From: a virus
Length of the DNA: 35,068 bases
Reading direction: 5' to 3' (one strand)
Virus record (IMG/VR): IMGVR_UViG_3300034021_001142
Span: 1 to 35,068 of that record
The notes beneath the pieces were generated by a model, which did not search any database, was not told the origin of the DNA, and saw nothing but the letters and a program-made list of their open reading frames with translations. This document shows positions 23,698 through 35,068 of the stretch, piece after piece. A program made the translations under genes and the position numbers. Within the stretch, counting starts at the first letter, position 1. Every line of letters begins with the position of its first letter.

Positions 23698-23807
23698 ATC
23701 AATCCTAATTCTTTAGTTAATAAAATGCACCTTTTATTGCCCAAGCAAGTGCGGCTTGTCGTTTTCACGTCGCTTTCGATTTGCATTAAAAAGCAACGCT
23801 TGCAATA

Positions 23808-23930
23808 TGGTGAGACGGGCAAGATTTGAACTTGCGGAGCCGTGGGAAAAGCGCTCTAATCCCCTAGCTCTTGGGCGCTATATAGGTTACCAACCCTATC
23901 CAATGCCTTAAGCCGCTCAGCCACCGTCTC
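23808..23930 (-). tRNA. Aberrant 123-nt class II (Ser/Leu-like) tRNA gene with CCA
   Basis: The 7-bp acceptor is perfect (GAGACGG 23924-23930 with CCGTCTC 23812-23818), followed by A73 and encoded CCA. The T arm is GCAAG-TTCAAAT-CTTGC (23819-23835). The D arm, GCTGAGCGGCTTAAGGC (23905-23921), is typical of tRNA-Ser. The middle is ~30 bases too long. The best anticodon-like hairpin is ATAGG/CCTAT with the 8-base loop GTTGGTAA, sitting on a TTGG/CCAA helix with a 7-base bulge; a long variable arm (GAGC/GCTC, GGGA/TCCC) follows. If TTGGTAA is the loop, the anticodon reads GGT (Thr codons). Identity cannot be fixed by eye. Confidence 0.75.
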
Positions 23931-30568: not shown

Positions 30569-31225
30569 TCACACCTCAATGCTTTTTTCAGTAAAAATTT
30601 CTATCAGTCTGTCTAACTGAGCAGCCAAAGCAGCCCTAGCAGCATCAGCAGCAGCCAAAGCAGCCCAAGCAGCATCAGCAGCAGCACCAGCATCAGCAGC
30701 AGCCCTAGCAGCATCAGCAGCAGCCCAAGCAGCATCAGCAGCAGCCAAAGCAGCCCTAGCAGCATCAGCAGCAGCCAAAGCAGCCCTAGCAGCAGCCAAA
30801 GCAGCCCTAGCAGCATCAGCAGCAGCCCAAGCAGCATCAGCAGCAGCCAAAGCAGCCCTAGCAGCATCAGCAGCAGCCAAAGCAGCCCAAGCAGCATCAG
30901 CAGCATCAGCACCAGAATCCAATTCTTCTTGAGTGGCGTTACCGTTTGCAAACGCTTCAGCGACATCAAGAGCTTTAATACTGCGATCATCCGTCATTAA
31001 GTGCTGAACTTTTCTAGCAGACCAAACAGCAAACAATCTTAACTCTTTAACCGTTAAAAATTCTTTTCTTAGCAATACCCAATGAATATCATTTTTTGAT
31101 TTTACTTTCTCGCGATATTCTTTGATAAAATTAACAACGCTATCCTCGTAGTCTTCTTTCATTCCAATTTCAATCGGATCGTAACAAGGATTAAGTTCTT
31201 TTATTTGCTGATATGATATTTTCAA
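30569..31225 (-). CDS. Ala-rich repeat protein, possibly immunity-type helical
   Basis: 218 residues from a TTG at 31225 placed after GAGGTG. The N-terminal ~105 residues form an ordinary domain (WVLLRKEFLTVKELRLFAVW ... SIKALDVAEAFANGNATQEE). Residues ~105-200 are built of Ala-rich repeats such as ADAARAALAA and ADAAWAA, encoded by near-identical GC-rich DNA unlike its neighbours. The ending is QLDRLIEIFTEKSIEV. Similar N-terminal/Ala-repeat proteins are widespread in bacteria and phages; role unknown. Repeat number is likely to vary. Confidence 0.65.
   Translation of the reverse strand: MKISYQQIKELNPCYDPIEIGMKEDYEDSVVNFIKEYREKVKSKNDIHWVLLRKEFLTVKELRLFAVWSARKVQHLMTDDRSIKALDVAEAFANGNATQEELDSGADAADAAWAALAAADAARAALAAADAAWAAADAARAALAAARAALAAADAARAALAAADAAWAAADAARAAADAGAAADAAWAALAAADAARAALAAQLDRLIEIFTEKSIEV
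30619..30911. repeat. Ala-coding repeat block (GCAGC/AGCAGC modules)
   Basis: Reiterated modules such as CAGCATCAGCAGCAGCC and AAAGCAGCCCTAGCAGC, locally far richer in G+C than the surrounding DNA. It encodes the Ala-rich helix of the gene on the minus strand and would be prone to slippage. Confidence 0.9.
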
Positions 31226-31226
31226 T

Positions 31227-31610
31227 TTACACCTCAATAAGTTTGTTTTCGATTAGGCTTATTATCGCCATAGCAAGGGAATTAGCGCTGGTTTCATTTA
31301 ACAAATCCATTTCATTAAGTATCTTTTCAAAATCGCGCTCATATTCTTCTCCATCAAAATTTAATGTAGATTTACTTTGAAATAAAATTTCATTGCATTC
31401 CGCCATTGTGAATGCCGAGTAATATTCTAAACGCCCTTTAATCTGATTAAAATCTGGTCTACCAAAAACCAAATTTATATCAAATTCAGTTTCATCATTT
31501 ATTTCTTGGCATTCAATTATCCAATAAAACAAAGACTCTTGCGGCGCACCTAATTCTTTAAGCCGCTTTGATAGTTCTAGCGAAGTTACTTGTTGTTCTA
31601 GTGGAATCAT
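31227..31610 (-). CDS. Conserved phage protein (SLELSKRLKELG type)
   Basis: 127 residues. QVTSLELSKRLKELGAPQES followed by LFYWI is a start I recognise from many phage accessory proteins of unknown function. It ends IENKLIEV with the stop TAA; GAGGTG in these codons is the ribosome site of the next gene. The ATG at 31610 follows AGGAAAATAAATC. Confidence 0.7.
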   Translation of the reverse strand: MIPLEQQVTSLELSKRLKELGAPQESLFYWIIECQEINDETEFDINLVFGRPDFNQIKGRLEYYSAFTMAECNEILFQSKSTLNFDGEEYERDFEKILNEMDLLNETSANSLAMAIISLIENKLIEV

Positions 31611-31622
31611 GATTTATTTTCC

Positions 31623-31790
31623 TTAATTGTTCTGCTCGCAAATATGATAAGCCTTGCTTGCCCAACCTTCTTTGTCTTCAACCTTTTTTCCGATGGATTC
31701 GCATGTTTGTTGCGAATTTACATTGGCAATAGAGTCAACTGAGACGCCCTGACTACTCATAAAAATAATAACCAAAATCCAAGTGGCCAT
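31623..31790 (-). CDS. 55-residue secreted or anchored Cys protein
   Basis: MATWILVIIFMSSQGVSVDS looks like a signal peptide or membrane anchor; the remaining ~35 residues have two Cys (TCESIGKK, HICEQ) that could form one disulphide in the periplasm. TAATG overlap with the SPFH gene, so the two are co-translated and may act together at the envelope. Unknown family. Confidence 0.55.
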   Translation of the reverse strand: MATWILVIIFMSSQGVSVDSIANVNSQQTCESIGKKVEDKEGWASKAYHICEQNN

Positions 31791-32590
31791 TATTTAGCGC
31801 TCATAATAAAAGGTATAGTAGCGCCCGTGTATTGCGGCAAATGCCCGTCCCATTTTGCGATAGCTGCTGTTTGGTTCTCAACCTGTCTTAATTGCAACAA
31901 ATCTGGCGTAATCGCTTGTTTTTGAATATTTAAAGCCGTTGCCTCTGCCTGCGCTTGAACGATTTTTTGTTGAGCCTGTACTTTTATTGCTGCCAAGTTA
32001 TTTTGCTCTGTAAATACCCTTTGCTGGGCTGTGACCTTTGCCTCAATGGCTTGATTAAACTGCGTACTAAATTGAAAATTAGTGATAGAGATTGATTGGA
32101 CATCAATACCATAAGCAGATAGTTTTGTCTGCAACATCTTTTGAATACCATCGCTTACCAATGCTCGTTTATTGATTAAATCTTCTGCGCTAAAATCAGC
32201 CACAACGCTTTTAAAAGTTTCTGACATCGCAGGATCGATAATTGAATTTTCAAAATAGTCAGGGTCGTTACCTATGTTAGAGTAAATCTCAATAGCATTT
32301 TTTGCTCGTAAAGAATAGTTTAACGTGATTTGAGTATCTACCGTTTGAAGGTCGCTTGAGGCAGCCTCACTGTTTGCTTGCGTAGTCAACACGCGTACGT
32401 TGAGTTTATGGACGCTTGCAAATGGATTTAAAAAGTGCATTCCTGGATCTAATGTTACGGGACTAACTTCCCCGAAAAGCGTTACTACGCCCACTTGGCC
32501 TGCACCAATGGTTGATATTGACATTATTCCAAATAATAATACAAAAAAACCAACAGCGCTTATTGATAAATATTTCAAACTTTTATCCAT
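31790..32590 (-). CDS. SPFH/prohibitin-like membrane protein
   Basis: 266 residues: an N-terminal membrane span (about 7-28, ISAVGFFVLLFGIMSISTIG), then the SPFH domain starting VGVVTLFGEVSPVTLDPGMH and FLNPF, with IEIYSNIGNDPDYFEN and the typical DVQSISITNFQFS, then a coiled coil (AQQRVFTEQNNLAAIKVQAQ) with AQAEATA repeats. This is the prohibitin/HflC type, forming ring scaffolds in membranes. A phage copy is a moron under its own consensus promoter (32655), suggesting expression independent of the early genes. ATG follows AAGAGG. Confidence 0.88.
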   Translation of the reverse strand: MDKSLKYLSISAVGFFVLLFGIMSISTIGAGQVGVVTLFGEVSPVTLDPGMHFLNPFASVHKLNVRVLTTQANSEAASSDLQTVDTQITLNYSLRAKNAIEIYSNIGNDPDYFENSIIDPAMSETFKSVVADFSAEDLINKRALVSDGIQKMLQTKLSAYGIDVQSISITNFQFSTQFNQAIEAKVTAQQRVFTEQNNLAAIKVQAQQKIVQAQAEATALNIQKQAITPDLLQLRQVENQTAAIAKWDGHLPQYTGATIPFIMSAK

Positions 32591-34499: not shown

Positions 34500-35068
34500 A
34501 ATCAAGCCCTCCTGTTGACGGTTTATCGAAGATACTCAAGTCTATTCCACTTGATTTTAAAGACCTTATTACATGTAATTCTTTTTGAACGGAAAAATCA
34601 TCCTTCCATCTTTCCCCATTTAACCACCCCTGAGCCATCTTAAAGTATTTCCAATCTTGGCCGCTTTCTTTAAATCCTAAAATAAAGCGTTTTAAACCCT
34701 CTATTATCTCATCCCCGCTATAACCCCTCTCTATGGCCTTAGAAAATGCAACCAAGGCCTCTTTCTTGCCGTTTTTGCGCGGGAAAAAACCCCAGAACTC
34801 ATTAAACTTTTCAAGAATTTCATTTTTACCGACTTTTTCAATTTTTGTAGATATATCAGAACGCGCGCGCGGGGATATATTATTACATATGTTTCCTGGT
34901 AAGTTAATACTTACTGATAGTTTTTTAGTAGTATTAATTTCTTTTTCTTTTGGTTCTTTTCTTTTTCTTTTGCTATCATTGCTATCATTGCTATCATTGC
35001 TATCATTGCTATCATTGCTATCATTGCTATCATTGCTATCATTGCTATCATTGCTATCATTGCTATCA
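34492..35068 (-). CDS. Replication initiator, C-terminal part (continues at 1-411)
   Basis: In frame with 1-411 once the 100-base overlap is removed. After the Asp-Ser-Asn repeats come a basic Lys/Arg/Glu stretch (KRKRKEPKEKEINTTKK) and a C-terminal domain: EILEKFNEFWGFFPRKNGKK, EALVAFSKAIERGYSGDEII, QGWLNGERWKDDF. The FW-x-x-FPRK-x-GKK ... WLNGERW pattern is the conserved C-terminal module of phage replication initiators and is thought to recruit the helicase loader. No DNA polymerase gene is seen, so replication should rely on host enzymes. Confidence 0.75.
   Translation of the reverse strand, partial: DSNDSNDSNDSNDSNDSNDSNDSNDSNDSNDSKRKRKEPKEKEINTTKKLSVSINLPGNICNNISPRARSDISTKIEKVGKNEILEKFNEFWGFFPRKNGKKEALVAFSKAIERGYSGDEIIEGLKRFILGFKESGQDWKYFKMAQGWLNGERWKDDFSVQKELHVIRSLKSSGIDLSIFDKPSTGGLDFD
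34970..35068. repeat. 9-bp tandem array, right-hand copy (window end)
   Basis: Eleven copies of TTGCTATCA ending at the last base. From 34969 on, the sequence equals bases 1-100, so this is the same locus as the left-hand array, seen twice. Confidence 0.95.

Follow-up and report, generated by a model that had tools for sequence, protein, structure and literature searches.

A serine-tRNA-like phage RNA with a folded insert at the place of the anticodon arm, and viral RNAs of similar architecture

What might a phage do with an RNA that has the ends of a serine tRNA around a middle that is not that of a tRNA? The question is raised by a tRNA-type gene of 123 nt that is recognised by reading the minus strand at positions 23808-23930 of the viral record IMGVR_UViG_3300034021_001142. 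The whole stretch of DNA that was analysed, 35,068 nt, is here called the window, and the product of the gene the window RNA. Codon supply is the usual explanation for phage tRNAs, and it fails for RNAs that are tRNA-like except for the anticodon.

The record is a 35-kb viral contig with homologues of terminase, portal and tail-fibre proteins, and its genes are those of a tailed bacteriophage. The RNA gene sits between minus-strand ORFs, and neither ARAGORN nor Rfam finds a second tRNA in the record. On the minus strand the order is GAGACGG, U8 G9, the D arm, an A and UUGGAUAGGGUUGGUAACCUAUAUAGCGCCCAAGAGCUAGGGGAUUAGAGCGCUUUUCCCACGGCUCC, followed by GCAAGUUCAAAUCUUGC, CCGUCUC, A and CCA. The parts that make up the tRNA frame, and a sequence just past it, are:

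23924 to 23930, minus strand: 5' strand of the acceptor stem, GAGACGG, with 7/7 pairs to 23812-23818
23905 to 23921, minus strand: D arm of the serine type with a 3-bp stem, GCUGAGCGGCUUAAGGC, read from the sequence
23819 to 23835, minus strand: T arm GCAAG-UUCAAAU-CUUGC, with 5/5 stem pairs and an intact T-loop consensus
23812 to 23818, minus strand: 3' strand of the acceptor stem, CCGUCUC, 7/7 pairs
23808 to 23811, minus strand: discriminator A73 and encoded CCA, read from the sequence
23788 to 23803, minus strand: possible weak terminator GCAA-GCG-TTGC with TTTTT (GCAAGCGTTGCTTTTT), found by eye five bases past the CCA; the terminator scanner omitted it, as the stem is shorter than its required length

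An earlier note on this DNA had described perfect tRNA ends on a Ser-like class II body, and both descriptions hold. The acceptor and T stems are fully paired, A73 is followed by an encoded CCA, and the serine-type D arm is combined with a long variable arm. Among ARAGORN calls in the loci we collected, 14 of 22 tRNA-Ser have this D-arm pattern; of the 159 tRNAs called as other types a single one has it, a Cys call. Further, the RNA matches the Rfam tRNA model RF00005 over all 71 model positions with 34.7 bits, above the gathering score of 29 (E-value 7.5e-6 in a 301-base search and 2e-7 in a genome search).

The note had proposed ARAGORN and covariance models as a check, and these tools disagree. 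ARAGORN does not call the gene a tRNA, and a scan of the whole window with the fast Rfam filters misses it, whereas the sensitive Rfam search gives the match above the cut-off. A covariance model that found a normal anticodon arm would have pointed to a standard tRNA. What RF00005 aligns as the anticodon stem is UUGG/CCAA, with 25 nt between the strands, and a further 32 nt are inserted in the variable region.

The gene also stands out by composition. Its GC is 54%, compared with 37% in the genome and 35-37% in the flanks. The fold of the whole 123-nt RNA has a z-score of -2.46, which is equalled by 5 of 200 shuffles.

The middle of the RNA is as swollen as the note had claimed: 69 nt, counting the A after the D arm, against the usual ~40 nt. 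Its GC is 52%, a level reached by 2.7% of genome windows, and taken alone it folds no better than shuffled sequences (z -1.17, p 0.12). The following elements are predicted in it:

23900 to 23903, minus strand: 5' strand of an outer helix, UUGG, at the expected start of the anticodon stem; it pairs with 23871-23874 in the Rfam alignment and in a constrained fold
23882 to 23899, minus strand: inner hairpin AUAGG-GUUGGUAA-CCUAU with an 8-nt loop at 23887-23894, from folding and a hairpin search
23875 to 23881, minus strand: 3' bulge of 7 nt, AUAGCGC, between the inner and the outer helix, from the fold
23871 to 23874, minus strand: 3' strand of the outer helix, CCAA, in the Rfam alignment and the constrained fold
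23837 to 23870, minus strand: very long variable arm of 34 nt, GAGCU..GGGA..UCCC..GGCUC, from folding

The 8-base loop on a 5-bp stem, the TTGG/CCAA helix with its 7-base bulge and the very long variable arm had all been noticed before, and all are present. Apart from the inner hairpin, the middle has no perfect 5-bp hairpin and no 5-bp hairpin with an 8-nt loop. None of these elements forms a canonical anticodon arm, in which a 5-bp stem adjoins position 26 and closes a loop of 7 nt that includes U33. At the place adjoining the D stem no 5-bp stem with a 7-nt loop is found (3/5 pairs), and position 33 is A.

Could the inner hairpin nevertheless decode? The note had suggested four-base decoding or a tRNA that misreads between Ser and Thr, and a functional tRNA with an expanded anticodon loop would agree with the 5-bp stem, the 8-nt loop and the Ser-type body. 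However, the AUAGG/CCUAU stem starts five nt past the D stem, where the usual distance is one. As the hairpin is not stacked on the D stem, its loop would not occupy the anticodon position, and the UUGG/CCAA helix with the 7-nt bulge would shift it further off the decoding site. The codon that misreading would serve, ACC, is also rare in this phage and makes up 9% of the Thr codons in the window. Finally, viral RNAs of the same class, described below, have no anticodons here; what they carry instead are tetraloops, triloops, loops of 9 nt or a pseudoknot. We therefore regard decoding by an expanded loop, in either form, as improbable.

To place the window RNA among other sequences we used the pattern TGGCYGAGNGGNNNAAGGC-N(55-85)-GTTCRAATC, which describes a Ser-type D arm and a T loop separated by an over-long middle. 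In viral contigs it matches 67 loci. Eight of these are ordinary tRNAs, long-armed tRNAs or two tandem tRNAs and were removed, as was the locus L047. This leaves about 53 non-identical RNAs without a canonical anticodon arm, the window RNA counted. Besides the window RNA, at least 45 viral sequences share the ends of tRNA-Ser with a replaced decoding part.

The D arm and the T loop are common to this set by construction, because both were in the search pattern. The acceptor stem was not part of the pattern, yet it has 7/7 pairs in 47 of 53 members, and such full pairing drops to 4.5% if each strand is taken from a different member. Over the acceptor and T stems of 46 distinct cores, 97.7% of the cells are paired. 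In the same cores both sides have changed in 198 cells, against 49 +/- 6 in shuffles, and covariation is scored at 0.82, compared with 0.22 for shuffles and no more than 0.22 with slid partners. This strong covariation means that the set consists of real folded RNAs and not of debris: its members are folded RNAs under selection.

The window RNA fits the definition of the set, with a paired 7-bp acceptor stem, a 5-bp T stem, an over-long middle and no canonical anticodon arm. Its membership rests on architecture. In sequence it is a singleton: there is no DNA match in phage records, and patterns made from each of its halves match nothing in viral contigs. Single-sequence queries to the phage collection give no full-length match. 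The terminase of the phage has only distant relatives among phage records (identity at most ~29%) and no close relative in viral contigs, and the major structural proteins have no close relative in phage records. As the window RNA has no close relative, its middle is without covariation support of its own.

For this reason the main rival explanation is decay: the window copy would be a pseudogene without function, left by a host tRNA(Ser) that was captured and then disrupted in its anticodon and variable region by an insertion or rearrangement. Phages often carry tRNA remnants. Fragments of tRNAs are a known problem in annotation (PMC9897764). A singleton with a middle that folds no better than shuffles would agree with decay. 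On the other hand, all acceptor, D and T positions are intact and the gene includes the CCA, frame and middle alike are far richer in GC than the AT-rich genome, and dozens of viral copies share the layout with strong covariation, which is unexpected for debris. Taken together, we find a pseudogene unlikely, but it is an explanation to be reckoned with.

The dozens of independent contigs with similar over-long RNAs also bear on the possibility that sequencing or assembly has damaged an ordinary class II tRNA. The window RNA does come from a single metagenomic contig. However, such an error would need to place about 30 structured, GC-rich bases exactly inside a tRNA and leave both ends perfect, and we consider it very improbable.

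A processed segment, which the note had also mentioned, could be an intron of the archaeal type, that is, a bulge-helix-bulge insert that is spliced out to leave a functional tRNA. The helix-bulge-helix formed by UUGG/CCAA, AUAGG/CCUAU and the 3' bulge would suit this reading. We removed every single contiguous segment from the middle, requiring a 5-bp stem, U33, R37 and a variable arm in what remained. For the window RNA there are 0 solutions; of the shuffled middles, 7% yield one or more. An intron is unlikely since no single excision produces an anticodon arm; further, position 33 is A and the genes of the contig are those of a tailed bacteriophage.

Cellular genomes provide the relevant comparison, as the same DNA pattern picks up many archaeal intron tRNAs there, which share the over-long middle. 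In bacterial and archaeal genomes it matches at least 118 loci. U33, R37 and a 5-bp anticodon stem occur together in 97 of the 118 cellular matches listed, the majority of them intron tRNAs of archaea or ordinary tRNAs of bacteria, but in 12 of 68 viral ones (window included), and eight of those 12 are ordinary tRNAs. Archaeal intron tRNAs thus keep U33, R37 and the 5-bp stem around the intron, and the window RNA does not. With no adjoining arm and no excision solution it is neither a standard tRNA nor a usual intron tRNA, and the chance that it is spliced appears minimal.

Among the bacterial matches, a few exceptions without a canonical arm come from Prevotellaceae (L146), Streptomyces (L081 and L138) and Ekhidna (L145). 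In the Streptomyces loci L081 (1863-1982, minus strand), L138, L154 and L176 the anticodon arm of an over-long Ser-type tRNA-like sequence is replaced by a hairpin that is very rich in GC; the sequence in L081 adjoins a gene with a TetR-type C-terminal domain. In Bacteroidota/rumen sequences (L002:4048-4278 and L146:5745-6163) a few hundred bases, apparently mostly non-coding, separate a tRNA-like RNA from a second tRNA-like gene after it. This stretch is possibly one larger structured RNA, and it matches no Rfam family other than tRNA.

What, then, replaces the anticodon arm in the viral set? The answer differs between members. In subfamily B (L012, L013, L020, L022, L037, L040, L041, L060 and L061) it is a pseudoknot, formed between the stretch that follows the D stem and the variable-hairpin loop. 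The pairs are compensatory between members (GCAGA/UCUGC, GCAUC/GAUGC, GCAGG/CCUGC, CUAG/CUAG and GUAG/CUAC), and pairing within each member exceeds pairing with other members (permutation p = 0.00025). In L029 and L065 the anticodon place is taken by a 6-bp stem capped by a tetraloop (AAAT/ATTT), and normal tRNAs are clustered around the gene. Subfamily C (L051, L033, L059, L019 and L188) has two helices, outer and inner, with a 3' bulge and with the loop AGNNMAUAG or a close variant.

The window RNA has the helix-bulge-helix layout of subfamily C, and its string CCUAUAUA is in register with L051; the loop motif AGNNMAUAG is absent from it. L051 is also the nearest in shape; the similarity of the two, with p = 0.03 before correction for 57 comparisons, is no more than suggestive. 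The pseudoknot of subfamily B is not found in the window RNA. Its variable arm has a palindrome, AGCGCU, in the loop region, and AGCGC of the bulge could pair with GCGCU of that loop (23850-23854); this pairing uses a different segment from that in subfamily B, is not significant (p = 0.11) and is not claimed here.

A few loci deserve mention on their own. The acceptor stem of the subfamily C member L188 (12242-12374, minus strand) can be extended to 8 bp (CGUGAUCG/CGAUCACG). At L187 (568-640, plus strand) acceptor strand, D arm and inner hairpin make up a 5' half of the subfamily C type with no 3' half nearby, and an ORF begins inside or just past it, either by fusion or by coincidence. L015 and L028 are one 125-nt tRNA-like RNA that occurs twice in the 63-kb contig IMGVR_UViG_3300044707_000482. 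Long frames at L049 and similar loci look like spurious translation of tRNA sequence and were set aside.

Gene neighbourhoods vary over the set. In L012, L020, L049 and L059 the RNA adjoins head, scaffold, packaging, portal or terminase genes, which may hint at a link to packaging in some phages. No neighbour is shared across the set, and other members lie in tRNA arrays or beside regulators.

tRNA-like ends without an anticodon are also a property of tmRNA, and reading frames are found inside some members. A tmRNA-like RNA would have a short reading frame within the tRNA frame. In L019 and L188 the middle does contain a start codon, preceded by a Shine-Dalgarno-like sequence, from which the frame exits through the T arm, and there are stop codons in the hairpin loops of subfamily C. 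In contrast, no start codon in the middle of the window RNA opens a frame that extends beyond the 3' end. Starts and lengths vary among members, and no reading frame is conserved in the set. Further, the window RNA has a complete D arm, unlike tmRNA, and neither ARAGORN nor Rfam calls it a tmRNA. A coding role of this type seems hardly credible.

Among the closest known RNAs is the bacterial tRNA(Ser) (class II, RF00005), with which the window RNA shares the acceptor length, the 3-bp D stem GAGNGGNNNAAGG, the T arm, the long variable arm and CCA. It differs in having no canonical anticodon arm, a middle of 69 nt instead of ~40 and an A as discriminator, a position at which bacterial tRNA(Ser) normally has G73.

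Two groups of phage RNAs of obscure role also invite comparison. RNAC and RNAD of T4 (species 1 and 2) are small stable RNAs adjoining the T4 tRNA cluster, and have been called "RNAs of yet unknown functions" (PMC9697503). RNAC has a complete 3' T arm, CCGGG-UUCGAAU-CCCGG, as does the window RNA, but no Ser-type D arm and no significant match to the Rfam tRNA model. Between either T4 RNA and the window RNA we find no relationship by sequence or model, and the resemblance is confined to the T arm. A comparative set with covariation would make the question of what RNAC and RNAD do, which dates back to early work on T4, testable. GOLLD and ROOL are structured RNAs of phages and prophages that occur near tRNA islands and whose function is unknown (PMC12286853). 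At several hundred nt they are far larger than the window RNA, and neither has an Rfam match in the window or in 25 scanned loci.

In the open literature we found no description of anticodon-less Ser-type phage RNAs; subscription journals and bioRxiv lay outside this search, so the absence is weak evidence. The structure of the viral set is solid, and the class looks undescribed. Annotation tools overlook such genes or label them as odd tRNAs. The recurrence of the layout in at least 45 other viral sequences suggests that RNAs of a kind that borrows the shape of a tRNA for a job other than decoding have largely gone unnoticed in viruses.

How could such an RNA work? The window RNA retains the tRNA parts that host enzymes would recognise, namely the acceptor stem, the elbow formed by the D and T arms, the CCA and a long variable arm. 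With a longer folded insert in place of the anticodon arm it could not decode normally. We infer that it would be transcribed and trimmed like a tRNA, with RNase P acting at the 5' end and the CCA already encoded, and the tRNA frame would presumably give it stability. From there two options can be considered. It may be a mimic that engages a host factor that binds tRNAs, such as SerRS, EF-Tu or a defence enzyme that targets tRNAs, or it may serve as a scaffold, a natural tRNA frame on which the inserted structure is presented. The most economical version would be that processing, stability and recognition by tRNA-binding factors depend on the frame, whereas the insert would be what acts or is displayed.

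SerRS reads the variable arm, the acceptor stem and the elbow of its tRNA and not the anticodon, and since it ignores the anticodon it is a natural candidate partner. The A73 of the window RNA calls for caution here, given the G73 that is normal in bacterial tRNA(Ser).

Weighing these points, our preferred reading of the window element is a phage tRNA(Ser)-like, non-decoding RNA that acts as a functional mimic, a proposal on which we are evenly balanced between belief and doubt. That the anticodon-less group recurs points to mimicry of tRNAs, either directed against host factors such as SerRS, EF-Tu or tRNA-cutting defences or working through them. For the set as a whole we propose, tentatively and with slightly more doubt than belief, that diverse phages encode a widespread, undescribed class of tRNA(Ser) mimics to which the window RNA belongs. 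In this class the frame would be kept by selection, the anticodon arm would have been swapped for a pseudoknot, a tetraloop hairpin or a bulged double helix, and the RNAs would act on host machinery that handles or targets tRNAs.

Some further features of the window may be recorded. Both ends of the contig (1-127 and about 34968-35068) lie in a tandem array of TTGCTATCA and have ~100 bases in common; this may therefore be a complete genome whose contig was broken within the repeat. On the minus strand, the ORF at 30569-31237 contains a long A/W/D/L repeat (AWAALAAADAAR), a low-complexity coding repeat, and is overlapped on the same strand by a Leu-rich ORF. Close by, at 31790-32590 on the minus strand, an SPFH/prohibitin-like protein (phrog_200) is encoded that has 44% identity to its match in Burkholderia phage CSP3.
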